Below, one piece after another: positions 4,004-33,010 of a stretch of 47,004 nucleotides of DNA (position 1 is its first letter; each line of letters starts with the position of its first letter). A program made the position numbers and the translations under genes. The stretch is from a virus: positions 1 through 47,004 of IMG/VR virus record IMGVR_UViG_3300031539_000063. One strand, written 5' to 3'. The notes below the pieces were generated by a model. The model made no database searches. It had not been told where the DNA came from and saw nothing but the letters and a program-made list of their open reading frames with translations.

Positions 4004-5485
4004 TCAGAACAGGGTGCCATCAACCGACGGAGCCAAGTCCGCCATCTCACCATCGTCATCATCATCACTGTCAGGGTTCAACGTATCCACGAGAGTCACG
4101 TCCAACGCATCCCGCGGGCGAGTCACAGCGACATACAGCAACCGCCGTTCTTCACCGCCGTCCTCACTGTCAGGGAAGTCGCCTGCCAGTTTCACCGAGT
4201 CCCACTCACGACCCTTCGCCCCATGCGCCGTCGACAGGATCAGCGAAGCCTTCGACTCCGATGCCTGCCCCTTCAACGCCCGCACGATCCCGTCCGGCGT
4301 GAACCGAGTCACCAACCCGACCAGCATCTTCAAGTCGCCGCCCAACTCGTCGTCAGTCGTGTAGTCCACCACGTCATCCCACGAATCGAAGCACACCAGA
4401 TCGGGGTGGCTCGTCCACCCGTCCTCGATCATCGTCTTGGCCCCGAACGCGAACGACACAACATCACGCCCGCCGCCGACCACGTGAGGTTTCCCGCCAC
4501 GGTTCAACTCCTCGAACGCCTCGGTGACCGCCGCTGCATTCGACCGCGACAGCACCACGTCGGGATGGTTCAGACGGCCGACGACACCGGGCTTGCCCTT
4601 GCCGACCAACCGCATGTCCGTCAACGTCGCGAGAACCTCGTTCGCCTGCTCAGCGATCTCCGGCCCGAACCGGAACGACCACGTGAGCGCCGCCCGCCCG
4701 GACACGTCAGCCTTCGCCATCGCGTCGACAGCGCCTCGCCACTGGTAGATCGACTGGTGCGTGTCACCCACGTAGATGACCTGCATGTGGTCCCGCTGCT
4801 GCGACACGATGTCGAGAACACAATCGGACGTGTCCTGCGCCTCGTCGAGCAACAGGTAGTCGCCCTCGATCTTCGGGGAACCCAACTGAAACAGTTTCAG
4901 GTAGGCGTCATGCTCGTACGGCATCTCGCCGCCCGGATCGGACAGGTCCACCCACGCTTGACGGAGAGCGCCGGTGAGCCGCGGCCGGAGCGTACGCCAC
5001 ACCGCCATCAACTCGTCGTCGTCACCCATCGTCGTCGGCATCGGGATGTGCTTCGCGAGCGGCTCCGGGTCAGCGGAAGCGCAGAACCGGCGGATACCAC
5101 GGGTCACCATTCCTGCGAGGAACGATGGCGACAGTTTCTTCGACCCCATCGACGACTCGAACATCATCGGTCCGATACCGAGTTTCGCTGCGATGTCAGC
5201 CGACCGCATCCGGGGCGCGCCCATCCGGTGCCGGAACGGACCCGCGGCGGCTTGGAACGCGACGGAGTGCGTGGTGCGGCAGTCGACGTGATCGGGGAAC
5301 CTCGCGTCGGCCTCGCGCTGCAACGCCTTGTTGAACGTGAGGTACACGCCTTGCGTCGGCTTCTCCTCAGCGATCATCACGCAGGTCGTTGTCTTGCCGG
5401 TACCGGCGAGAGCGTCCACGGCAAGGTGGCCTCCGCCGCGGGCGAGAGTGACTGCCTGATCTTGTTCGGGTGTGGGGGTTGGCAT
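4004..5485 (-). CDS. UvrD/Rep-like superfamily 1 DNA helicase
   Basis: 493 aa. Q-motif-like TPEQDQAV near residue 5, Walker A AGTGKTTT near residue 30, Walker B LLLDEAQD near residue 213, motif III GDTHQSIYQWRGA, motif IV-like SFRF, motif V AHGAKGREWD and motif VI YVAVTRPRDAL. All SF1 helicase motifs are present, so an active ATP-dependent 3'-5' DNA translocase is expected. It is shorter than host UvrD, about the size of phage and FBH1-like forms. The C-terminus is very acidic. A leaderless type B promoter precedes it; tRNA-Lys lies just upstream. Confidence 0.9.
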   Translation of the reverse strand: MPTPTPEQDQAVTLARGGGHLAVDALAGTGKTTTCVMIAEEKPTQGVYLTFNKALQREADARFPDHVDCRTTHSVAFQAAAGPFRHRMGAPRMRSADIAAKLGIGPMMFESSMGSKKLSPSFLAGMVTRGIRRFCASADPEPLAKHIPMPTTMGDDDELMAVWRTLRPRLTGALRQAWVDLSDPGGEMPYEHDAYLKLFQLGSPKIEGDYLLLDEAQDTSDCVLDIVSQQRDHMQVIYVGDTHQSIYQWRGAVDAMAKADVSGRAALTWSFRFGPEIAEQANEVLATLTDMRLVGKGKPGVVGRLNHPDVVLSRSNAAAVTEAFEELNRGGKPHVVGGGRDVVSFAFGAKTMIEDGWTSHPDLVCFDSWDDVVDYTTDDELGGDLKMLVGLVTRFTPDGIVRALKGQASESKASLILSTAHGAKGREWDSVKLAGDFPDSEDGGEERRLLYVAVTRPRDALDVTLVDTLNPDSDDDDDGEMADLAPSVDGTLF

Positions 5486-7965: not shown

Positions 7966-8601
7966 TCATCGGACCAGCACCGTCGCCGTACCAGACTCGA
8001 CCTCGGTGAGTCCCGCATCACGGATCACAACCTGCGCCCGCTTCGCGTCCTCATCGAACTCGTCGCCCGACACCTCACGCACCCTGAACGCCGTACCGTC
8101 CGAGTGCAGCCACCGCAACCGTCCACCCGGAGGCAACCGGAGCAGCCACGCACAGAGAGCGTGAGCGACCTGCGCCGCCGTCTTACCCGTCGACATCTCC
8201 ACGTCACCGTTCACGAACAGCGACGGCCCTGCGTTCATCTCCGACCAGTTCCCATCGTGGGGACGGTTGAAGTCAGCGACACGCAACTTGCCGAGAGCCG
8301 GAGGCACCTCGTCGCGGGCCATCGGCAGAAACGCCACAGCCCGCACGATCGACTCCGACAGGTCATCGCCCAACAGTCCCACCCCCGCTGTCGCGTTCGG
8401 GACGATCGACTCGGCCAACGCATCGACCTTCGCGAACGAACCGCGGCGGACCGTCTTGGTGAACCGGCCAGATAGCCACGCCTGCATCTGCGGGTGGTCG
8501 AACTCGGCCAGCAACAACTTCGCGGACGCACGCGCCACGGCACACACAACGTCGGAGTGTGACCCCGAGTTGCTCACCGCAATCTGCTGCACCAGTTCCA
8601 T
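7966..8601 (-). CDS. PTH2-like peptidyl-tRNA hydrolase
   Basis: 211 aa. The C-terminal part (about residues 125-211) matches the Pth2 fold: SLFVNGDVEMSTGKTAAQVAHA (conserved Lys and AQxxHA helix) and the closing VIRDAGLTEVESGTATVLV. Pth2 enzymes recycle peptidyl-tRNA released prematurely. The N-terminal ~120 residues resemble the extra region of actinobacterial Pth2-like proteins. Its location between tRNA arrays supports a translation role. Leaderless type B start at ATG 8601. Activity is inferred from motifs only. Confidence 0.75.
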   Translation of the reverse strand: MELVQQIAVSNSGSHSDVVCAVARASAKLLLAEFDHPQMQAWLSGRFTKTVRRGSFAKVDALAESIVPNATAGVGLLGDDLSESIVRAVAFLPMARDEVPPALGKLRVADFNRPHDGNWSEMNAGPSLFVNGDVEMSTGKTAAQVAHALCAWLLRLPPGGRLRWLHSDGTAFRVREVSGDEFDEDAKRAQVVIRDAGLTEVESGTATVLVR

Positions 8602-10412: not shown

Positions 10413-11012
10413 TCAGACCCGATACAGGAAATGCTCTTGGACGTACCGCTCGACCGTCGGCGGCACCGCATACCGCAACGTCTTGCCGTGCTTGATCCCA
10501 TTCCGCAACGACGACGACGACAGCCCAGTCACCTGCGACGGGAACACCTTGACCCGACCCCGGAACTCCGCCGGGATCTCCACCGGCTCCCCCTCACGCT
10601 CGCCCATCACGAACGTCGCCATGTCCAACACACGGTCGATATCGCGCCAACCATTCAACCCGTCGATGTTGTCCGACCCGCAGATGAAGAAGAACTCAGT
10701 GTCCACCTCACCGGCAACCAGATCAGTCAACGTGTCAACCGTGTACGTCGGCCCCGCCCGCTCAGCGTCGACATACGACACACGGAAGTTCGGGTTGTCC
10801 GCCACCGCCAACTCGGTCATCGCCAACCGATGCCGCACCGGAGTCGCGCCCCGCTTGTAGTCCGGCTCGCCCGTCACCACGAAGTAGACCGCCGACAAGC
10901 CCAGTGCGTAGCGGGCGTCCTCCGCGAGCAGCAGGTGTCCGAGATGCGGCGGATCGAACGTGCCGCCCAACAGTCCGACCTTCCGGCCCGTCGATAGGTG
11001 ATGTTGCTTCAT
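10413..11012 (-). CDS. nadD: Nicotinate-nucleotide adenylyltransferase
   Basis: 199 aa. The nucleotidyltransferase signature GGTFDPPHLGH lies at about residues 15-25, GSDNIDGLNGW follows in the middle, and the second ATP-binding motif GLSSSSLR (ISSTxxR type) lies near residue 165. NadD joins nicotinate mononucleotide and ATP to give deamido-NAD. Length is normal for bacterial NadD. ATG 11012 overlaps the nadE stop (ATGA), so it is the last, coupled gene of the NAD operon. Confidence 0.93.
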   Translation of the reverse strand: MKQHHLSTGRKVGLLGGTFDPPHLGHLLLAEDARYALGLSAVYFVVTGEPDYKRGATPVRHRLAMTELAVADNPNFRVSYVDAERAGPTYTVDTLTDLVAGEVDTEFFFICGSDNIDGLNGWRDIDRVLDMATFVMGEREGEPVEIPAEFRGRVKVFPSQVTGLSSSSLRNGIKHGKTLRYAVPPTVERYVQEHFLYRV

Positions 11013-12652
11013 GGCTTCCACCCGTTCGTGATGGGGAGCCGTCGTTCCCGGCCGAACGCTCGGGTCGTGATCTTCACGCCCGGTGCCGACTGACGGCGCT
11101 TGTATTCGTTCCGATCCACCAGCCCGACGACACGCCGAACCGTGTCCTCCGCTCCGACCCCGCTCTCGATGATCTCGTCGACCGGCGTGTGATCCTCGAT
11201 GTACGCCGCGAGGATCGCGTCGAGCATCGGGTACGGCGGGAGGCTGTCCGAGTCGACCTGATCGGGAGCGAGTTCCGCCGATGGGGGTTTGCTGATCGTC
11301 GCCCACGGGATGCGTTCCTCGTGCCGGTTGACAAACTCTGCCAACTCGTACACGACCGTCTTGGGGACATCCTTCAACACGGCGAACCCTCCGGCCATGT
11401 CCCCATAGAGGGTGCAGTAGCCGACGGCCATCTCCGACTTGTTTCCGGTCGCCAACACGATCCCGCCGTGCTTGTTCGTGACGGCCATCAGGATCAGGCC
11501 ACGGAGCCGGGCTTGCAGGTTCTCCTCCGCGACGTTCGGTTCGGTCCCGTCGAACAGCGGTTCGAGCGCGCCCACCGCAGCGGCGTACATCGGTTTGATC
11601 GACACGTCATCGCAGTCGATCTCCAACCCGGCGGCGAGAGCGAACGAGTCCAACACCGATCCGCCTGACGACCACGGACCCGGCATCGTGATGCCCCGCA
11701 CCCGGCGCGGTCCGAGAGCGTCCACCGCTATCGCCGCGGTCAACGCACTGTCGATCCCACCGGACAGGCCGATCGCTACCGACGGAAACCCGTTCTTGTC
11801 CACGTAGTCGCGCAACCCGATCGTGAGTGCCCGGTACGTTTCCTCGATCCGGCCGATGGGTCGGGGGAACACGTGCTGCACCGGATCGTCGGTGTCGACG
11901 AACGCGACGTACTCCTCGAACTGCGACATCTCGGCCAGAACGTGCCCACGGTTGTCGACATACAGTGACCCGCCGTCGAACACGATCTCGTCCTGCCCAC
12001 CCACGAGGTTCACGTAGGCGACCGCACAGCCGGTCCTCAGAGCCGTCTCTTGGACGAGAATGCGTCGGGCCTCCACTTTCCCGTGGTGGAACGGTGAAGC
12101 GTTCAGAACGACGAGCAGCGCCGCGCCTTGTTCCGCAAGGTGGTCGGCCAACTCGGGTCGCCACAAGTCCTCACAGATCAGCACACCGACCTTCGTGTCG
12201 GCCACGTCGAACAGATCACCGGACCATCCGTCGGGGGAGAACTTGCCGGGAGCGAAGTAGCGGGCCTCGTCGAACACCCCGTAGTTGGGGAGCAGTTGCT
12301 TCGCGTAGTGGTGCCGGGCCTTCCCATCGCGGACAGCGACCGCGGCGTTCAGGACCGTGCGCCCCTCGGCATCGTGCGTCATGGGAGCGCCCAACGTCGG
12401 TGCGGCGTAGCCGATCACGGTGGTCACTGTCTCGGCTTCGGCGGCGATCCGTTGCGCTGCCTGCATCGACTGGATGACGAACTCGTGGCGGAGCAGCAGA
12501 TCCTCCGGCGGGTAGCCGGTGACGGCCAACTCGGGGGTGATGAGCAGATCGCACCCGGCTAGTTCGGCGTCGGCCATCGTCGCGACGATCTTCGCCGTGT
12601 TGCCGTCGATGTCTCCGACAGTGAGGTTGAGTTGAGCAAGTCCGATCTTCAC
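11009..12652 (-). CDS. nadE: Glutamine-dependent NAD+ synthetase
   Basis: 547 aa, two domains. N-terminal nitrilase/glutaminase domain (1-250) with the triad Glu in ITPELAVTGYPPEDLL, Lys in HHYAKQLLPNYG and Cys in GVLICEDLW. C-terminal ATP-pyrophosphatase domain with P-loop GLSGGIDSAL (about 280). It converts deamido-NAD to NAD+ using glutamine. All catalytic residues are present and length is that of the short bacterial form. GTG start at 12652 overlaps the upstream stop (GTGA); the homologous sequence MKIGLAQLNLTVGDIDGN begins exactly there. Confidence 0.95.
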   Translation of the reverse strand: MKIGLAQLNLTVGDIDGNTAKIVATMADAELAGCDLLITPELAVTGYPPEDLLLRHEFVIQSMQAAQRIAAEAETVTTVIGYAAPTLGAPMTHDAEGRTVLNAAVAVRDGKARHHYAKQLLPNYGVFDEARYFAPGKFSPDGWSGDLFDVADTKVGVLICEDLWRPELADHLAEQGAALLVVLNASPFHHGKVEARRILVQETALRTGCAVAYVNLVGGQDEIVFDGGSLYVDNRGHVLAEMSQFEEYVAFVDTDDPVQHVFPRPIGRIEETYRALTIGLRDYVDKNGFPSVAIGLSGGIDSALTAAIAVDALGPRRVRGITMPGPWSSGGSVLDSFALAAGLEIDCDDVSIKPMYAAAVGALEPLFDGTEPNVAEENLQARLRGLILMAVTNKHGGIVLATGNKSEMAVGYCTLYGDMAGGFAVLKDVPKTVVYELAEFVNRHEERIPWATISKPPSAELAPDQVDSDSLPPYPMLDAILAAYIEDHTPVDEIIESGVGAEDTVRRVVGLVDRNEYKRRQSAPGVKITTRAFGRERRLPITNGWKP

Positions 12653-13365
12653 TGTGTCGTCTCTCGGTAGAAGGGCGGGTAGAGGTTCTCTGTCAGAGCG
12701 GGGAGCGCGTAGAGCCGTCCAAGCCCAAGCGATCCTCCGGCTTCTTCCAGCCGGAATGTCGACAGGACTTTGCGGCGGAAGTTCGCCGGTTCGATGTCGA
12801 CACCCCACACCGTTTCGTAGACCCGTCGGAGTTGACCGATCGTGAACTCGTACGGCAGGAACGCGGTCGCGTGGGTCGTGTATTCGAGTTTCGCCCGTGC
12901 CCGTTCGATGGCGTCGTCGATGATCGTGCCGTGGTCGAAGGCGAGCATGTCGCGGTCGATCATGTCGACCGGCCAGTACCTTGCCTCCGCCGCGTCCGAT
13001 CCGGCGATGGGGTTGCCCGGCTCGGGGAAGAACGCGACGTACGCGATCGACACGATGCGGAACCGTGGGTCGCGGGACGGTTTGCCGTAGGCCCCCAACT
13101 GTTCGATGTGGCCGGAGAACAACTCGGTGCCTGTCTCCTCCTGCAACTCGCGGAGAGCGGCGTCGTCGAGTCCCTCGTCGTGTTCGACGAACCCGCCGGG
13201 GATCGCCCACTTGCCCTTGTACGGGTGCCCTGCGCGTTTCACGAGCAGGACTGACAGGTTGCCGTCGATGATGGTGAGCAGTACGAGATCGACGGTGATG
13301 CCGGTCGGCGGGTAGGCCGTCGGGTCGTAGGTGGCGAGGAACTCGGCTTCGGTCTGGTCGCTCAT
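12649..13365 (-). CDS. Nudix protein with NrtR-type winged helix
   Basis: 238 aa. Nudix box GGFVEHDEGLDDAALRELQEE (Gx5Ex7REUxEE) is complete, so hydrolase activity on ADP-ribose or a related compound is plausible. The C-terminal region (about 165-225, FLPYEFTIGQLRRVYETVWG...NFRRKVLS) matches the winged-helix domain of NrtR-like repressors, which bind DNA and sense ADP-ribose or NAD intermediates. Located inside the NAD operon with ATGA overlaps on both sides. It may be regulator, ADP-ribose pyrophosphatase, or both; the intact Nudix box slightly favours a retained enzyme. Confidence 0.85.
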   Translation of the reverse strand: MSDQTEAEFLATYDPTAYPPTGITVDLVLLTIIDGNLSVLLVKRAGHPYKGKWAIPGGFVEHDEGLDDAALRELQEETGTELFSGHIEQLGAYGKPSRDPRFRIVSIAYVAFFPEPGNPIAGSDAAEARYWPVDMIDRDMLAFDHGTIIDDAIERARAKLEYTTHATAFLPYEFTIGQLRRVYETVWGVDIEPANFRRKVLSTFRLEEAGGSLGLGRLYALPALTENLYPPFYRETTQ

Positions 13366-13991
13366 CGGATCAACGCTGGATCGTTGATGAACACCCCGGC
13401 ATCGGCCATCTCGGTGATCGCAGCGGCGATCATGTCGGCGTCGAGTCCGACGCAGAACTCGGTGAGCAGCGTCGTGTGGAACCCGTGGGCCACACCGTCG
13501 AGCGCGGTGGCCTTGTCGCAGAACTCGGTAGCGATTCCGCACACGTCGATCGACGTGATGCCGTAGCCCCGCAGCAACGTCGCGAGGGGGACACCGAGAT
13601 CGGTGGTGCCCTCGAAGCCGCTAAACGCCGGAGCGAACTGGCCCTTGCTGATGACGGCCGTAGGGGTTCCGGCGATCCCATTGAACGGGATGTTGCCCAA
13701 CTTGTCGTGGAACTCGGCGTCGCGAGTACCGGCAACCCCGTGGACGGGGAAGGTGGTCACGAAGTCCGGTTCCTCTCCGGGTGCGGCGAAGTGGTCGCCG
13801 GGGTCGATGTGCCAGTCGCGGGTGAACACGATCAGGTCGTAGAGCGGGGTCGGTCCGGGGCCGTGGGTCACGGCGTCGATGTAGTGCCGGATGCGTTCGG
13901 CTACGTCGTTCCCTCCGGGGACGGCGAGCAAGCCGCCCTCGCAGAACGTCTTGTTCACATCGACGACGATGAGTGCGGTGTTGGTGGTCAT
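13362..13991 (-). CDS. pncA: Nicotinamidase
   Basis: 209 aa isochorismatase-like hydrolase. Catalytic Asp in VVDVNKTFCEGG, metal site DWHIDPGDHF (D, H, H), Lys in SKGQFAP, and nucleophile Cys in VCGIATEFCDKAT. It deamidates nicotinamide to nicotinate, first step of the Preiss-Handler salvage route. AGGAGA precedes ATG 13991, 10 nt after the pncB stop; the gene's own stop overlaps the Nudix start. Confidence 0.93.
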   Translation of the reverse strand: MTTNTALIVVDVNKTFCEGGLLAVPGGNDVAERIRHYIDAVTHGPGPTPLYDLIVFTRDWHIDPGDHFAAPGEEPDFVTTFPVHGVAGTRDAEFHDKLGNIPFNGIAGTPTAVISKGQFAPAFSGFEGTTDLGVPLATLLRGYGITSIDVCGIATEFCDKATALDGVAHGFHTTLLTEFCVGLDADMIAAAITEMADAGVFINDPALIR

Positions 13992-14001
13992 GGGGCTTCT
14001 C

Positions 14002-15333
14002 CTAGTTCGGGGCCGCGCTGAGTGCGGGCCGTCCGGCTTCGATTCCTCGGTGCATCGGCCGAAGTTCAGCCATCGCTCCGTGGTGTGTCTGGCGGGCATG
14101 GACGAGCGTGCCGATATGGGGATTCACTCGCTTTCCGTCGCGGACCATCGGGTGCTGCAACGCACGGGCCAGCGGTGTCGACTGCGGATCGTCGTCGGTG
14201 AACCGAACCACGACCTGTTCCTCTACCGCGTGGCCTTCGGTTTCGAGAACGCGGAAGGCGTGCTTGCGGCCACCGACCGACGCTTTCCCGCTCGACCGTT
14301 TCTCGACAGGCCGGTAGGTGCCGTCGCCGTTTCCGATCGCGACCAACTTGTAGACCATCTCTGCGGTCGGGTGACCTGAGCCGGTGACCAACTTGGTGCC
14401 GACAAGGAACCCGTCGATGGGTGCGTCAGCCTTGACCAGTTTGTCGATCAGGTATTCGTCGAGATCGCCTGAGACGGTGATCTTCGTGACCGCTGCGTCG
14501 AGACTGTCGAGCAGCACACGGGCCTTCTTCGCTTCGGCGGCAAGATCGCCGGAGTCGATACGGATGTTCGCGGGGAACCTGCCGGTCACTTCACGACAGA
14601 CTTCGACGGCGTTCTTGATCCCCGTGGGGATGTCGTAGGTGTCGACGAGGAACGTGGTGTCGTGGCCGTACCGTTCGGCCTGCGCCCGGAACGCTGCACG
14701 CTCATCGGTGTGAAGCAGCGTCCATGCGTGGGCTGCGGTGCCGCCGGTCGGGACTCCGTAGAGGAACCCGGCTGCGAGGTTCGACGTGGCGTCGAATCCG
14801 CCGATGTAGGCGGCTCGTGCGCAAGCGGTAGCAGCGTCGGGGTCGGTACGTCGTCCCCCGCCTTCCAGCAGCGTCGCGAGTCCTGCCGCGGTTCGCATCC
14901 GGCTTGCGGCCGATGCGATTGCGCTGTCGTGGTTGAGGGTTGAGAGGATCAGCGTTTCGAGTACCACGCATTCTGCGAAGGTGCCTCGGACGGTGAAGAT
15001 CGGTGAGTAGGGGAAGTAGAGATCCCCTTCGGCGTAGCCGTCGATCTGTCCGGTGAACCGGTAGTCGCGGAGGTAGTCGAGTGTCTGTTCGCTGAGGAAG
15101 CCTCGTTCGCGGAGGTAGATCAGTTCGGCAAGGCTGCCGTCGGCGTCGCTGAATCGGAAGTTGTCGATGGCGTCGAGCAGTCTGCCGGTGCCCCCGACGA
15201 CACCGTAGCGGCGTCCTTCGGGGAGTCGTCTGGCGAACGCCTCGAACACGACGGGGGTGTCAGCGGTGCCTTCCGCGAGTGCGGCGTCGGCCATCGTGAG
15301 TTCGTAGTGGTCGGTTTGTAGGGCGGTGGTCAT
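14002..15333 (-). CDS. pncB: Nicotinate phosphoribosyltransferase
   Basis: 443 aa. The N-terminal LQTDHYELTMADA motif and the central GFDATSNLAAG, VDTYDIPTGIKNAVEV, RIDSGDLAAEAKKARVLLD and GTKLVTGSGHPTAEMVYKLV blocks are those of bacterial PncB. It makes nicotinate mononucleotide from nicotinate and PRPP. GAGGAG lies before ATG 15333. First gene of the NAD operon, downstream of a type B promoter and two palindromes. Confidence 0.95.
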   Translation of the reverse strand: MTTALQTDHYELTMADAALAEGTADTPVVFEAFARRLPEGRRYGVVGGTGRLLDAIDNFRFSDADGSLAELIYLRERGFLSEQTLDYLRDYRFTGQIDGYAEGDLYFPYSPIFTVRGTFAECVVLETLILSTLNHDSAIASAASRMRTAAGLATLLEGGGRRTDPDAATACARAAYIGGFDATSNLAAGFLYGVPTGGTAAHAWTLLHTDERAAFRAQAERYGHDTTFLVDTYDIPTGIKNAVEVCREVTGRFPANIRIDSGDLAAEAKKARVLLDSLDAAVTKITVSGDLDEYLIDKLVKADAPIDGFLVGTKLVTGSGHPTAEMVYKLVAIGNGDGTYRPVEKRSSGKASVGGRKHAFRVLETEGHAVEEQVVVRFTDDDPQSTPLARALQHPMVRDGKRVNPHIGTLVHARQTHHGAMAELRPMHRGIEAGRPALSAAPN

Positions 15334-15363
15334 GGGTGACTCCTCGATTCCAGTCTGTGTCAT

Positions 15364-15394
15364 CTTGACTCTATCTGTCAAGTCATTCTGACTT
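15364..15394 (-). promoter_or_regulatory. Two palindromes: candidate operator of the NAD operon
   Basis: AAGTCA-3-TGACTT (15380-15394) and CTTGAC-7-GTCAAG (15364-15382) overlap each other and lie just downstream of the -10 box, where a repressor would block transcription. The operon encodes an NrtR-like protein, the obvious candidate ligand-responsive binder (inference). Confidence 0.6.
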
Positions 15395-16620: not shown

Positions 16621-16707
16621 TGGTGCGGACGGAGGGAGTCGAACCCTCACGGAGTTTCCTCCGGCACGCACTCAACGTGCTGCGTCTACCAGTTCCACCA
16701 CGTCCGC
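16621..16707 (-). tRNA. tRNA-Leu(GAG)
   Basis: Type II; loop TTGAGTG on GCACG/CGTGC, variable arm GGAGGAAACTCC, CCA encoded. First tRNA after the promoter of this array. Confidence 0.92.
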
Positions 16708-20711: not shown

Positions 20712-21354
20712 TCAGAACTTTCCCTTCGCCCACTCCTGCACCCGCCACGACCGACCCCGCTCGTGATCCACCACGATCCCCCGCTGATGGTTGTGCGTGA
20801 ACCCCTTGGCCGGACGCTCCCCACCCGCAATCTGCGAAACGCGATTCGCGTTACGCGATTCCCGTTTCGCCCGATCCCGAGCAGACCCCACCCGACGCTC
20901 CAACTCACGAAACGCCGTCTGCCGGTTCTGCCACTGGGACCGCCCCTCGATGTGGACCCGCGTGCCCGTCGCGGTGTGAACCAACGTCACCGCAGAGTCC
21001 GTCGTGTTCTGATGCTGACCGCCCTTCCCCGATCCACGATCGAACGTCTCCTCGACCTCGGACCAGTCGAGCGACATATCGGATCGTCTATGGGCCTCGA
21101 CGACAGCGACCGTCGCTGTCGACGTGTGCCGTGCCGCCGCGCCTTTCGGGATGCGTTGAATCCGATGGACCCCGGCGTATGTCTCGGCCCACGAGCCGTC
21201 GTCGAGTTCGAGGATCAGTGTGCGGCCGTCGGACGGGACGACCTTTGCCGGGTCCGACCGGCGGCGCGCTGCACGCTTGAACGAGTCAAAGTAACTCCTT
21301 GCCGAAGCGTGCTGCGTCGTCGCCACCCTCGCCGGGTCGAACCTCGATCAACAT
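20712..21354 (-). CDS. Peptide chain release factor with programmed +1 frameshift
   Basis: Two frames make one protein of about 213 aa. Frame 0 from ATG 21354 (GAGGAAAGG upstream) gives 22 residues including EVRPGEGGDDA, the start of RF domain 2, and ends at TGA 21286-21288. The stop context is AAGGAG-TTA-CTT-TGA-C, the same layout as the prfB frameshift (SD-like hexamer, 3 nt, CTT TGA C). Skipping one T continues as DSFKRAARRR, then GVHRIQRIP, RHTSTATVAV and the catalytic GSGKGGQHQN (GGQ). Domain 1 is missing. The RF1 P-x-T tripeptide region reads PKG with a two-residue deletion, so stop-codon preference is unclear. Role: peptide release or ribosome rescue. Confidence 0.85.
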
Positions 21355-21372
21355 GGGTTTGCCTTTCCTCGT

Positions 21373-28161: not shown

Positions 28162-31100
28162 TCAGACGGCGCAGGCACACTCTCCGGTATCTCCGCATTC
28201 GCAGTCATGCTCCTCGATGGCAGCCTCGGCGGATTCCTCCACGTCGACTGTCACCTCGTCACCCTCTGCGAACTCGGCCTCCGGCTCCCCCTCGGGCACG
28301 GTGTCGATCTCGTCCTCGATCTCAGTGGACGGCTCCTCGGCAGCAGCGAGAACCTCGGTGCCTCCGATCAGCCGCAACTCGCCCAACTTGGCGAGAGTGC
28401 GCTCGGCCCGGAACGGACGCATCGCTGCACGAAGTTCAGCGACCTCGGCACGCAGAGCCTCAACCTCGGTGGCCGACGGCCCCGTGTTGTGCTTCACCAT
28501 GCCCAGTCCGACAACCGATTCGGCTTCGCCCGACACAGTGTCGAACACGCCCATCGGTTCATGCACCTCGATTGCCTCGCCGCCGGAAGCGACCAGACCT
28601 TCGACGATGAAGCCCGACACGTTCACGGCCAGCAGACCCACAACGGTCAACTTGCCGTTGATCTTCCGCCAGTCCGGGGAGATGTCCGAACCCCGAAGGG
28701 CACGAGCCATCTCCGGGGTCACATCGGACCGGAGCGAACCGGAAGCGACAATGCCCCACTCGTTCTCGTAGAGCGCCACGTCAGCCACAGCGCAGCCGGT
28801 GTGAGCGTAGAACGCCTGAGCGTCCGAAGCCTTCTTCCGAAGATCCGGGTGAACAGCGTCGATGTAGACCGGGCCGGTAGCGACGAGCGTGCCCTCCTCG
28901 GTCAACACGTGACCGGTGCGGAACGAAGCGAACGGAGCGCCGCCCTTCGGGACAGTCACACACCGCTTCGAGAAACCGATGTGGCACGAACCCCACTGGG
29001 CAACCAGACCGAAGATGCGGCCGTCAGCGTCGACCCGAACCGGGTGCGGTTCCTCCATGTCCTGCAAACCGAACCACCCGACCGGCGGGGCGCACGGCAC
29101 CTCGACCAGCGTGGCCGCGGCAGCCGAAGCCACCAACGCCTGCGGGTCGGACCCTGCACCATGACCTTCCGAGTAGGTGGTGAACTCGCCGGACACGAGC
29201 GGGCGGCTCACCGTCCACACGTCGCCCATCACCCCGGCAGCGACCAGCGCCGTCGATTCCTGCACGTCGGCAGAGTCGATGACAGCGATGTGTGCCTCTT
29301 GGAATGCGGGGAACGGCGTGATCGTCGCACCCATGATGCGACCCTCGATCAGAACCTCGATCGCTTCGGCTTCACCGAAGATCACGTCCTCGAAATCGAC
29401 CGCGTCGCCTTCGGGGGAACGGAACTCCACGACCACAGAGTCGATGTCAGCCGACACGCCTCGCATGGTGCCTTCGGAGATCAGACGTTGGGCTTCCTGC
29501 CCGTTGTCGCCCGAATCGAAGTAGCCGCGTCCGATGATGTCGAACACGCCTTCGGTGTTCGTCGGTGCCCGGTCGATCTCGTGAATCGAACCGGCGATCA
29601 CAGCGCCGTCGTGACCCATCGCGTTCACCGTCTGCAACATCAGCGGGATCGGCAGTTCACGGTGGGTCAGAGCCTCACTCGCGATCATCCGACCGTCACC
29701 CGACGGCAAACCCTCAACGATCAGGACGCCTTCCCAGTGAAACGGACCCTTGCCGCCTTCGGGGTGGACGAACGCCTCGGCTTCGCCGCCCATGTCGTCG
29801 TCCTCGTCGTGGGCAGCGGCCTCGACCGGCTCCTCCTCGACGATCTCCGCTGCGTCAGCGGTCACCGACTCGTCGGTGTCCTCATCGGCAGCCTCGGCCT
29901 CAGCGGGAACAGCGGCGACGATCTTGTCGGCCTCCGTCTCGGCCCAACGGCGAGCGATCTCGGCCACCAGCAAATCGGTGTCGATGTCGGCAAGGTCCGT
30001 GGACTCGTCGTCCTGCACGTCGGCCTCGAACTCGACTTCGACCGGGAACTCCTCGGCGTCACCGTCAGCGGCTTCCACCTCGGAACCCTCAACCTCAACC
30101 TCAGTGGCGGCAGCGAGAGCGGCCAGCACCGAATCGGGGTCGGTCAGGTCCACGACCGTTCCGGCTTCGACCTGCGAAGCGACCAGCGATGCGTCCTCGT
30201 CGGACAGCAACTCGGGAGCGTCCATCTCGGCGTCAGCAAGATGCGCCGCCAGATGGTCATAGACGCCCTGCCGGTCATCACCGGGGATCGTCGTTCCGCC
30301 ACGAGCGCCGTTCAGAACAGCGATACCCGTGATCGCAGCGACCACGTTCGCAGCGCCGGGGTTCCCGTCGGCATCGACCTCGTGGTGGATGAACCGGTAC
30401 GCGGCCTTCACATCGAGATCGGCTTCGTCGTCACGCCACGCGTACACCCGGTCGAAGTAGTCCGGGTCGTTCGGGGACACGACATTGACTTCGATCGCAG
30501 CGGCATCCCACGGCTCGTCGATCGTCGGCGTGTCATGTGCCGCGATTGCACCGAACTCAGTGGTCTGGTCGACGAACTCGGTGGTGTCGTCGTCCTCGGC
30601 CGCGAGTTCGCCCGTCTCTCCGACCGGCACCTCGATGCCTTCCTTCTCGATCCCGTCCGCAGGGGCTTCGATGACCTGAACGTCGTCGGCCAGTTCGGCC
30701 GGACCTTCGATCACGATGGGGGTCACGGAGTCGCCGTCGGCAGCGGCCGTGAGCGCGTCACTCACACCAAGCCGGGCAGCGAGACGGTCGACAACCGAGT
30801 TGACGAGAGCGTCAGCGATCCGGTCGGCCACACCATCTTCCATGACGGGCACAACATGAACCTGAACTTCGGCGCGGCCGACGTTCAACGCGGCACGCGC
30901 CGCGGTCAGGTCCGGCAACGGACCCTCGGTTTCAGTCGCAGCAGCGACGATCGGGATGGCTTCCCCTTCGGGGGCAACCTCAGCATCGGGCATGTCGGGC
31001 ATATCGACCTCCTCGTCGACCACGATCTCACCGCCGTCGTTCAGTTCGTCAGCAGCAACTTGCGCTTCTTCGACCGTCGCCCAGCAGCCGACGACCTCAT

Positions 31101-32679
31101 CCATCTCGATGTCCACAACCGCGTGAGACATCTCACCGTCGGTAGCGTCCATGCACTCGGGCGAGTTCTCCACGACCTCGAACATGCGGGGTTCGCCGCC
31201 GTTCATGTCATCGGCAACGGCCTGCGCTTCTTCCACGGTCGCGTGGCAGCCGCCTTCAACCTCGCCCGTCAGCGCGTTGACGACAGCGTTGGGAAGTTCG
31301 CCGCCCGACGATTCGACACACTCGGGGTTGTCGGGAGCGACGACGAACATCGGCATCTCCTCGGCGTCCTCGATCTCGTCCTCGATCCCCTCGGCGTCCT
31401 CGATCGCTTCGTTCAACGCCTCAGCGCGCATCGCGGCTTCTTCGAGCGTCGCGAAACAACCGTCGCGCTCCTCCGTCTCCCAGTTCCACACAGCGTGGGG
31501 CATCTCGCCGCCACTTTCATCCATGCAGTCGGGGTTGTTCGCAACCACGATCCAAGCCATGTTCGTTGAATCCTCCTGTTCCGCCTCATCCGGTGCCTCG
31601 ACGAACGCAACGTCGATAACACGCAGACCCCAGCGGAGAGTCATGTCATTGAATGTCAATGGTAGACCGACAACCTCGGTGTCTCCGGGGATGGGATCAC
31701 GAGCGAGCGTGATATGTGGGGTCCATCCTCGGTCCTCGGGGACGTGAACCCCGCGGCCTTCGAGAGCGTCGATCAGGTCTGCGCGAAGGTCGAACAGTCC
31801 CGGCACATCGACGAGAGCGATGAGGAGATCGTCCTCACTCTCCCCGAACGTGCCGAGTCCTGCAATCTTCCCTTCGAGCGGTACATTGGTTCCCGTCACC
31901 TCCAACAGCGCGGACACAATCGCCTCGCGGTCAAGGTGAGGATCGCCCTTGTGTCCGAGCCACAGCATCGTCAGATGCAGCATCTCGGCCGGTACGCCAC
32001 CCGGCAGAGCGATAGCGAGCCGTTCAGCGTCAAGCGGTTCGACAGTGATGATGACCCCATCGGGGCCTGCGCCGAACTCGGCCTTGTCCAACCGGATCGG
32101 GTGAGGGACCGTCTCGTCACCAAGATCGGTGTCGTCGTCGGTAGCGAGCGGTTCGGTCACCGGCTCGATGTCCGGGGTCACTTCCGGCACTTCTTCGATC
32201 GGCGGGGGCATCAACAGGTCAATCACGCCACGGGCAGGAACCACATCGGCCGGGGGAAGGATCACGCCGGAGATCGGCTCGGCCCGCTGCGAGTAGAAGG
32301 TGCAGACATCGTTCGCGTCGATCGCGCCCTGCACGACCACGCACGTCCCCTGCTCGCCCAGTAGCGGGGGTTGGTTGAAGAACCGGCAGTTGCCGCAGTA
32401 GTTCTCGCTACCGTCGTCGGCTTCGCGCAGGTTCGCGTCGCCCGGCGATTGGTCCGGCAACCCGTCATGGGGGTTGAGCAGCGACATCGCCGCCTGCGTA
32501 TCTCCGTCGAGCGCCATCGGCTTCGCCATGTGAGCCAACAGTTCCACGACCAGATCGTCGTCCATATCGGCAACCGGCGTGGCCGGAGCGTCGGCCAAAG
32601 CGATGAGTGCTTCGAGCGCGGGAGCGAACTGCTCGATCAGAGCAGGGGTCAATCGGTGGCGTGGCTCGCGATGCGACAT
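28162..32679 (-). CDS. Giant capsid-maturation-protease fusion with 2H phosphoesterase domain
   Basis: 1505 aa; GGAG precedes ATG 32679. Order: helical start; Cys motif YCGNCRFF...CTFYSQR (about 92-130); a 2H phosphoesterase domain (2'-5' RNA ligase family, about 205-385) with LHLTMLWLG and PHITLA (HxT motifs); three ~50-residue repeats, each with PxCM/V-xx-GGE-(M/L)xxAV and a (C)xATxEEA tail (about 390-560); acidic linkers; a conserved VYAWRDDEAD...GVYDHLAAHL domain (about 740-820); the prohead protease domain FHWEGVLIVEG...MGHDGAVIAGSIHE (about 990-1150); coat-like and coiled-coil C-terminus ending in CECGDTGECACAV. It lies beside MuF and portal genes. Probably head maturation/scaffold; the role of the 2H domain is open. 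Confidence 0.85.
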   Translation of the reverse strand: MSHREPRHRLTPALIEQFAPALEALIALADAPATPVADMDDDLVVELLAHMAKPMALDGDTQAAMSLLNPHDGLPDQSPGDANLREADDGSENYCGNCRFFNQPPLLGEQGTCVVVQGAIDANDVCTFYSQRAEPISGVILPPADVVPARGVIDLLMPPPIEEVPEVTPDIEPVTEPLATDDDTDLGDETVPHPIRLDKAEFGAGPDGVIITVEPLDAERLAIALPGGVPAEMLHLTMLWLGHKGDPHLDREAIVSALLEVTGTNVPLEGKIAGLGTFGESEDDLLIALVDVPGLFDLRADLIDALEGRGVHVPEDRGWTPHITLARDPIPGDTEVVGLPLTFNDMTLRWGLRVIDVAFVEAPDEAEQEDSTNMAWIVVANNPDCMDESGGEMPHAVWNWETEERDGCFATLEEAAMRAEALNEAIEDAEGIEDEIEDAEEMPMFVVAPDNPECVESSGGELPNAVVNALTGEVEGGCHATVEEAQAVADDMNGGEPRMFEVVENSPECMDATDGEMSHAVVDIEMDEVVGCWATVEEAQVAADELNDGGEIVVDEEVDMPDMPDAEVAPEGEAIPIVAAATETEGPLPDLTAARAALNVGRAEVQVHVVPVMEDGVADRIADALVNSVVDRLAARLGVSDALTAAADGDSVTPIVIEGPAELADDVQVIEAPADGIEKEGIEVPVGETGELAAEDDDTTEFVDQTTEFGAIAAHDTPTIDEPWDAAAIEVNVVSPNDPDYFDRVYAWRDDEADLDVKAAYRFIHHEVDADGNPGAANVVAAITGIAVLNGARGGTTIPGDDRQGVYDHLAAHLADAEMDAPELLSDEDASLVASQVEAGTVVDLTDPDSVLAALAAATEVEVEGSEVEAADGDAEEFPVEVEFEADVQDDESTDLADIDTDLLVAEIARRWAETEADKIVAAVPAEAEAADEDTDESVTADAAEIVEEEPVEAAAHDEDDDMGGEAEAFVHPEGGKGPFHWEGVLIVEGLPSGDGRMIASEALTHRELPIPLMLQTVNAMGHDGAVIAGSIHEIDRAPTNTEGVFDIIGRGYFDSGDNGQEAQRLISEGTMRGVSADIDSVVVEFRSPEGDAVDFEDVIFGEAEAIEVLIEGRIMGATITPFPAFQEAHIAVIDSADVQESTALVAAGVMGDVWTVSRPLVSGEFTTYSEGHGAGSDPQALVASAAAATLVEVPCAPPVGWFGLQDMEEPHPVRVDADGRIFGLVAQWGSCHIGFSKRCVTVPKGGAPFASFRTGHVLTEEGTLVATGPVYIDAVHPDLRKKASDAQAFYAHTGCAVADVALYENEWGIVASGSLRSDVTPEMARALRGSDISPDWRKINGKLTVVGLLAVNVSGFIVEGLVASGGEAIEVHEPMGVFDTVSGEAESVVGLGMVKHNTGPSATEVEALRAEVAELRAAMRPFRAERTLAKLGELRLIGGTEVLAAAEEPSTEIEDEIDTVPEGEPEAEFAEGDEVTVDVEESAEAAIEEHDCECGDTGECACAV

Positions 32680-32707
32680 AGATACTCCGTGGGGGCGGAC
32701 ACCACGA

Positions 32708-33010
32708 TCATACGTCACGGACACCCCGGCGGACGTGGAGTGCCGCTGTCAACGCGTTTCTTGCCGCCGTGGTCAACTGCGCCACGTCAGACTCCCCGGT
32801 CCCGTCAGCGGCATCCTCGTCGGACTCACGGGCTTCCACCACCGCTTGTATCGCCGCTTCACCGACGAACTCCAAATCCCCCGTCAACTCGCCATCGAAC
32901 AACGCGAGGATGAACCGGGCCTCGTCCTCCGGCACCGAGAACGTCAACATGATCGACTCGACCTGCCGGTCCTCATCCATGTCATCCCACTCAACAACTT
33001 CAACTGCCAT
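32708..33010 (-). CDS. Hypothetical 100-aa protein
   Basis: Begins MAVEVVEWDDMDEDRQVESI; acidic, helical. ATG overlaps the MuF-zincin stop (ATGA). Between head genes, so possibly a small head-associated or chaperone protein (inference). Confidence 0.6.
   Translation of the reverse strand: MAVEVVEWDDMDEDRQVESIMLTFSVPEDEARFILALFDGELTGDLEFVGEAAIQAVVEARESDEDAADGTGESDVAQLTTAARNALTAALHVRRGVRDV

Follow-up and report, generated by a model that had tools for sequence, protein, structure and literature searches.

A release-factor gene divided between two reading frames

The subject of this analysis is a compact release-factor gene carried on the minus strand of the virus record IMGVR_UViG_3300031539_000063, of which positions 1 to 47,004, the whole stretch of DNA analysed, are referred to here as the window. 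The gene is split over two frames by AAGGAG-TTA-CTT-TGA-C, which is the +1 frameshift cassette of prfB, the bacterial gene for release factor 2 (RF2). Re-translation of the minus strand of the window returned exactly the coordinates and frames assigned by an earlier reading made from the letters alone (the sequence-only reading). The features of the gene are as follows, where SD denotes Shine-Dalgarno and ORF an open reading frame.

20712 to 21354, minus strand: whole release-factor gene, with its ATG at 21354; 213-residue fused product after the +1 shift
21362 to 21370, minus strand: SD sequence GAGGAAAGG, 7 nucleotides 5' of the ATG; anti-SD duplex of -5.9 kcal/mol
21286 to 21354, minus strand: zero-frame ORF encoding MLIEVRPGEGGDDAARFGKELL, followed by TGA (21288-21286)
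21313 to 21345, minus strand: start of domain 2, EVRPGEGGDDA; Pfam PCRF match from residue 2
21295 to 21300, minus strand: internal SD-like AAGGAG, 3 nucleotides before the slippery codon, with TTA as spacer
21285 to 21291, minus strand: CTT TGA C, comprising the slippery CTT (21291-21289), the in-frame TGA and the +4 C (21285)
20712 to 21287, minus strand: +1-frame coding part from GAC at 21287, holding the rest of domain 2 and domains 3-4
21120 to 21155, minus strand: codon-recognition loop RIPKGAAARHTS, placed by alignment; two residues shorter than in release factor 1 (RF1), with no PxT or SPF
21015 to 21023, minus strand: catalytic GGQ, residues 111-113 of the fused protein, invariant in 67 aligned sequences

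Each element that had suggested a prfB-style cassette is in place, namely the SD-like hexamer, the 3-nucleotide spacing, the CTT, the in-frame stop and the +4 C, opening into a release-factor core, and E. coli prfB, read in the same manner, gives AGGGGG-TAT-CTT-TGA-C with spacing equal to that of the window site. As the layout of the two frames and its conservation show, the full-length protein needs a +1 slip at CUU UGA C. The fused product scores 64.8 bits against Pfam RF-1 (cut-off 35) and 37.9 bits against the second half of Pfam PCRF (positions 103-194; cut-off 24). Domain 1 is absent, since the PCRF match covers the second half only, and the match to the NCBIfam RF1 models begins at profile position 115, in keeping with the sequence-only reading. 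That reading had also placed the shift site within domain 2, which holds, as frame 0 already encodes EVRPGEGGDDA; across the family alignment the GG of this segment is invariant and GEGG is shared. Its description of an RF1-like core without PxT or SPF is likewise upheld by alignment and NCBIfam scores, to which can be added the loss of two residues from the loop (RIPKG--AAARHTS). The TTA spacer codon (21292-21294, minus strand), just before the slippery CTT, is used for none of the 436 Leu residues encoded by the main ORFs in the window.

A single interruption in a metagenome contig could reflect a one-base insertion or deletion that broke a release-factor gene, either as a pseudogene or as an assembly error, with the likeness to prfB arising by chance. 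The comparative evidence leaves this explanation with almost no probability. The window contains the string AGGAGNNNCTTTGAC a single time and 100 shuffles do not contain it at all, against a simple expectation for both strands of 0.0035, and the sequence has a coding pattern on both sides of the site. A contig from another sample (L050) carries an identical release-factor gene, with 0 differences in 643 positions, and the search for the same site in relatives, proposed with the sequence-only reading along with alignment to release-factor families, found it kept in five diverged relatives (L051-L054 and L056; 51-59% protein identity to the window product). In the six members of this clade (window, L051, L052, L053, L054, L056) all 7 bases of CTTTGAC are invariant and AGGA(G/C)-NNN precedes them at the same codon and spacing, whereas an invariant third codon position is seen in just 1 of the 18 codons preceding the site and in 0 of the 16 that follow. 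Substitutions track frame 0 ahead of the site and, beyond it, the +1 frame, with third-position differences of 0.48 and 0.52 and lower values at positions 1-2. Furthermore, a bacterial homologue from Virgisporangium ochraceum NBRC 16418 (L200), with 45% identity to the window fused protein, is uninterrupted and reads VVVEIRPGEGGDDAVAFATELTDAVSAHARR in a single frame across the equivalent of the junction. Because diverged relatives keep the site while third positions vary, and L200 encodes the fused reading in one frame, sequencing error is excluded; the conservation of CTTTGAC across diverged relatives refutes the broken-gene explanation, and on this comparative evidence the split gene with its prfB-type site is confirmed as genuine.

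The same data bear on internal initiation, with translation of a functional protein starting in the +1 frame at the GTG at 21326 or further on, which would make the upstream ORF a mere leader. A 204-residue GTG ORF (20712-21326) does exist in a mechanical sense. Its use, however, would swap the conserved GEGG motif for VATTQHASARSY, a peptide that bears no relation to it. Coding constraint acts on frame 0 as far as the site, and L200 holds GEGG and the core in one frame, so we regard internal initiation as highly improbable.

Family placement and phage setting

Relatives of the window gene were collected from viral scans and one genome scan. With GGQ and an RF-1 domain over cut-off, the window product qualifies as a bacterial class-I release factor, and its NCBIfam scores fall in the order RF1 > RF2 > PrfH > ArfB, all under the equivalog cut-offs. 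The RF1 models give 114.9-123.9 bits (114.9 for the RF1 (prfA) equivalog, cut-off 423.25), the RF2 (prfB) equivalog 79.3 (cut-off 370; the product has no SPF), PrfH 51.6 (cut-off 166.65; GEGG and PKG stand in place of the GP tip and SxY loop) and ArfB (YaeJ) 33.3 (cut-off 100; domain 2 is present). In the tree the family forms one supported clade (100/95) that is sister to RF1; RF2 branches outside and PrfH lies far off. Within the clade, the window is united with L054, with L051-L053 and L056, and with L199 and L200 from actinobacteria (100/100); L056 carries the tree label NONE only because its match starts at the shift site. The single-sequence fold of the window protein is poor, with a predicted local distance difference test score (pLDDT) of 47. 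An AlphaFold model of L200 made with 47 family rows reaches a pLDDT of 93.5, and its best PDB matches are ribosome-bound RF1, with a template modelling (TM) score of 0.88, so this uninterrupted relative is predicted to have the domain 2-3-4 fold of release factors.

This placement bears on whether the product is a rescue factor that acts independently of the stop codon, in the manner of PrfH or ArfB, with its dose set by the frameshift. The missing domain 1 and the shortened loop, as PrfH has a loop gap (PMC1586002), are consistent with such a role, as are a co-encoded Pth2-like protein and a near-complete tRNA set. Against it, the RF1-like HTSTATVAV and the GG tip are kept, the RF1 models far outscore those of PrfH and ArfB, and the tree puts the family beside RF1; we therefore hold the rescue role to be possible, though somewhat doubtful.

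Phages as large as 735 kb carry the family, as do some bacteria, and the RF1 genes encountered in the same genome scan are uninterrupted. At the DNA level, named phages gave no match near the release-factor region. Matches from tblastn in named isolate-phage records, checked or suspected, were set aside since they look like ordinary bacterial RF1 (L290, for example, is uninterrupted and has domain 1). PADLOC returned no match, and RtcB was not found in the window record, which may be a fragment.

The window itself is a 47-kb virus contig of 64% GC with 36 tRNAs, and a DNA methyltransferase gene lies just upstream of the release-factor gene. Two further features concern translation:

16621 to 16707, minus strand: tRNA-Leu(GAG), of the kind that reads CUU, present also in L051-L054 and L056; given as context
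7966-8601: co-encoded Pth2-like protein

Elsewhere in the window, adjoining NAD synthetase, isochorismatase-type and nicotinamide phosphoribosyltransferase-like genes (11009-15381, minus strand) form a possible NAD salvage cassette, and a 1520-residue ORF (28162-32724, minus strand) resembles an RNA ligase over a stretch close to its start and has portal/protease-like matches towards its end. One relative, L054, has a phage transfer-messenger RNA gene near its release factor (4624-5006).

Recoded stops across the family

The window gene represents one of several arrangements. Among the 93 distinct viral relatives read (about 125 further relatives from one viral scan stand outside this count), 92 have an early in-frame stop: 32 have a +1 shift site or an upstream in-frame UGA, 60 are of an in-domain readthrough type, and one (L131), the sole uninterrupted gene, has neither. 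A +1 CTTTGA site lies inside domain 2 in 20 relatives, the window clade having it at codon 22, another clade at 34 and L128 at 43, and a shift site with UGA or UAG lies just upstream of domain 2 in 11, while L071 has an in-frame UGA there (about 18 nucleotides before 10001). A second in-frame UGA is seen near the C-terminus of L071 (10652-10654, MKG*FDLIN). The 60 genes of the readthrough type are interrupted inside domain 2 without a change of frame, once in 58 and twice in L129 and L189, and by UGA in all except one with UAG (L127); UAA is used in none of the viral relatives read. Within a readthrough subclade, L128/L073 has a +1 site at the same place in lieu of the in-frame stop; the devices therefore interchange.

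In four loci tandem +1 sites follow a normal SD-ATG start:

L057, 9927-9982: tandem +1 sites
L058, 9945-9988: tandem +1 sites
L077, 9936-9988: tandem +1 sites, UAG and then UGA
L081, 9915-9955: tandem +1 sites

Between the two sites there is no start codon in L058 and L077, and only TTG codons in L057 and L081. Bacterial copies of the family include those of Minicystis rosea DSM 24000 (CTTTGAC) and Pyxidicoccus fallax DSM 14698 (CTTTAGC), and the huge-phage records LR745206, LR756501, LR756502, LR756504, LR756511 and LR745208 carry the family as well; in published huge-phage records its genes have single or double in-frame UGA or shift sites. The Minicystis and Pyxidicoccus genes (L218 and L227) are chromosomal frameshifted release-factor copies in myxobacteria, and RtcB was not among the few neighbors of these two that were checked.

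In most genes of the readthrough type the UGA falls in the alignment column that holds Trp, Phe or Tyr in RF1 and, in the frameshifting subgroup, the Leu encoded by CTT; insertion of Trp would therefore restore the ancestral residue. Selenocysteine at this UGA is unlikely, as judged from aligned residues that are mostly Trp, Phe, Tyr or Leu and rarely Cys (L200, L202). Gly is encoded immediately before the in-frame stop in 54 of 62 cases, and the stop is followed by A, C or G, never by U; a passage of PMC5289835 reports that U at +4 lowers readthrough. Windows of 60 nucleotides starting 6-9 nucleotides after the UGA have a mean structure z-score of -2.2 (standard error 0.2) over 59 loci, some of them closely related, which falls to -0.5 at +20, and the same test gave no such signal at the frameshift loci or in RF1 controls. 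A named 9-bp hairpin retains pairing in 67% of cells, whereas slid versions reach 28-46%, and its covariation score exceeds that of each of 500 shuffles. RNAalifold found no consensus hairpin on the readthrough-gene alignment because the hairpin positions differ, and downstream of the window-type shift site no RNA structure recurs consistently. Together, the conserved UGA, leaky context and downstream hairpin point to candidate programmed readthrough. At L132 and other loci of this type a downstream hairpin lies at +6 to +45 of the UGA.

Genome-wide recoding was rejected as an explanation, as coding density under code 11 is normal in nearly all contigs examined and TGA and TAG end neighboring ORFs; the rejection is less certain for L073, where this density is low. 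Two ARAGORN calls may represent suppressor tRNAs or false calls, one with a TCA anticodon (selenocysteine-like; L063, 12313-12384, minus strand) and one with a CTA anticodon (pyrrolysine-like; L056, 17621-17696, minus strand).

Proposed role and comparison with known systems

We consider it very likely that the window gene encodes a backup release factor, made when termination at UGA (or UAG) is slow; the protein is probably made only when translation termination falters. After initiation at the ATG at 21354, the ribosome would come to CTT while UGA occupies the A site; AAGGAG, positioned upstream just as in prfB, would pair with 16S rRNA, and the P-site tRNA-Leu would slip from CUU to UUU so that translation resumes at GAC. 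Prompt termination at UGA would yield only a dead 22-residue peptide, and slow termination, where host RF2 is limiting, titrated or damaged, perhaps late in infection, would let the slip win. The factor so made would enter the A site and hydrolyse peptidyl-tRNA through its GGQ, a backup termination or rescue factor supplied by the phage alongside its tRNAs and Pth2-like protein. Precedents for parts of this scheme are an RF1 truncated of domain 1, reported to be active (PMC1586002), and the CUU UAG C of the Mimivirus release factor, at which +1 shifting was demonstrated in E. coli (PMC3521657).

Were the factor to read UGA, the outcome would be negative autoregulation; otherwise the gene would be a sensor of the host's capacity for UGA termination. 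The window factor may thus be autoregulated, as the sequence-only reading suggested, or its switch may instead sense host RF2. In this feed-forward alternative a factor that does not itself read UGA, whether specific for UAA/UAG or generic, would be switched on as host RF2 fails. The protein is related to RF1, which does not read UGA, and relatives with an identical loop use UGA or UAG; on the other side, UGA occupies nearly all sites, as expected of a cognate codon, and bacterial prfB sites are always RF2-readable (PMC12421855), so we give this alternative only tentative credence. RF2 autoregulation by frameshifting is a textbook case.

Several observations weigh against the backup-factor reading. 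The internal AAGGAG forms an anti-SD duplex of -6.5 kcal/mol, compared to -8.3 for the prfB AGGGGG, and the AGGAC of L056 is weaker still. Most of the 840 records that the portal protein matches belong to actinobacteriophages, and the actinobacterial phylum has prfB shifting in 0 of 2,658 genomes, while in M. smegmatis a B. subtilis site shifts at only 6.6% (PMC12421855); output of the window factor may therefore be low. If the host is actinobacterial, the phage would use a device that its host has lost. Strict self-sensing is also made less certain by the PPTESKGR loop of relatives, which goes with UGA (L058, L066) and with UAG (L081); this mixed use and the shortened loop of the window protein would allow a factor that reads both UGA and UAG.

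By extension, compact release factors widespread in phages and bacteria might act on UGA as well as UAG (all stops) and take over from both host factors, with a stop switch controlling each of them, although we regard this as unlikely. If true, evolution would have swapped the switch among a +1 slip, a tandem double slip and hairpin-stimulated readthrough, with the window as the simplest form; the UAG-then-UGA tandem in one gene would be a possible AND gate, and the window device would possibly work in a phylum whose own prfB lost it. More generally, the family opens to experiment the question of whether phages detect faltering translation termination and put it right, and it offers a natural series of one gene with different recoding devices. 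Such genes have likely been missed or called broken by annotation.

The recoding of this family was absent from the literature searched, outside which most subscription papers lie; what was found concerned prfB shifting, unshifted prfA, giant-virus eRF1 recoding and huge-phage RF1/RF2. A 2016 review described a bacterial release-factor gene with in-frame UGA readthrough, or a UAG counterpart for RF1, as unknown except in a giant virus (PMC5009743), and a 2025 survey found UAG at 0 of 8,164 prfB sites and prfA without a programmed shift (PMC12421855). The present family seems to provide such cases, in phages.

Among known systems, the huge-phage RF1/RF2 genes (PMC7162821) share the setting, in that comparable huge-phage records carry the family; a search of that text finds release factors mentioned and no frameshift or readthrough. 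RF1 (prfA) is closest by profile score and tree and shares the fold, but the window protein lacks domain 1 and PxT, and prfA has no programmed frameshift (PMC12421855). PrfH/RFH is likewise a bacterial class-I factor without domain 1 and with a shortened recognition loop (PMC1586002), from which the window protein differs by a GG rather than a GP tip, the absence of SxY and of RtcB in the record, and by its recoding, none being known in PrfH. The Mimivirus and Megavirus class-I release factor (R726/mg280) is likewise carried by viruses, and its expression depends on both a CUU-stop-C +1 shift and a readthrough (PMC3521657); it is of the eukaryotic/archaeal eRF1 type, whereas the present family is of the bacterial RF1 type, occurs in phages and bacteria, and uses one or the other mechanism per gene. 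Finally, bacterial prfB shares with the window gene the SD-like hexamer, the 3-nucleotide spacer, CTT TGA C and +1 entry into the release-factor core (PMC12421855). Unlike prfB, the window protein is an RF1 sister without domain 1 whose shift site lies inside domain 2, and its relatives, in contrast to the bacterial prfB sites, use UAG, tandem double shifts or in-frame readthrough.
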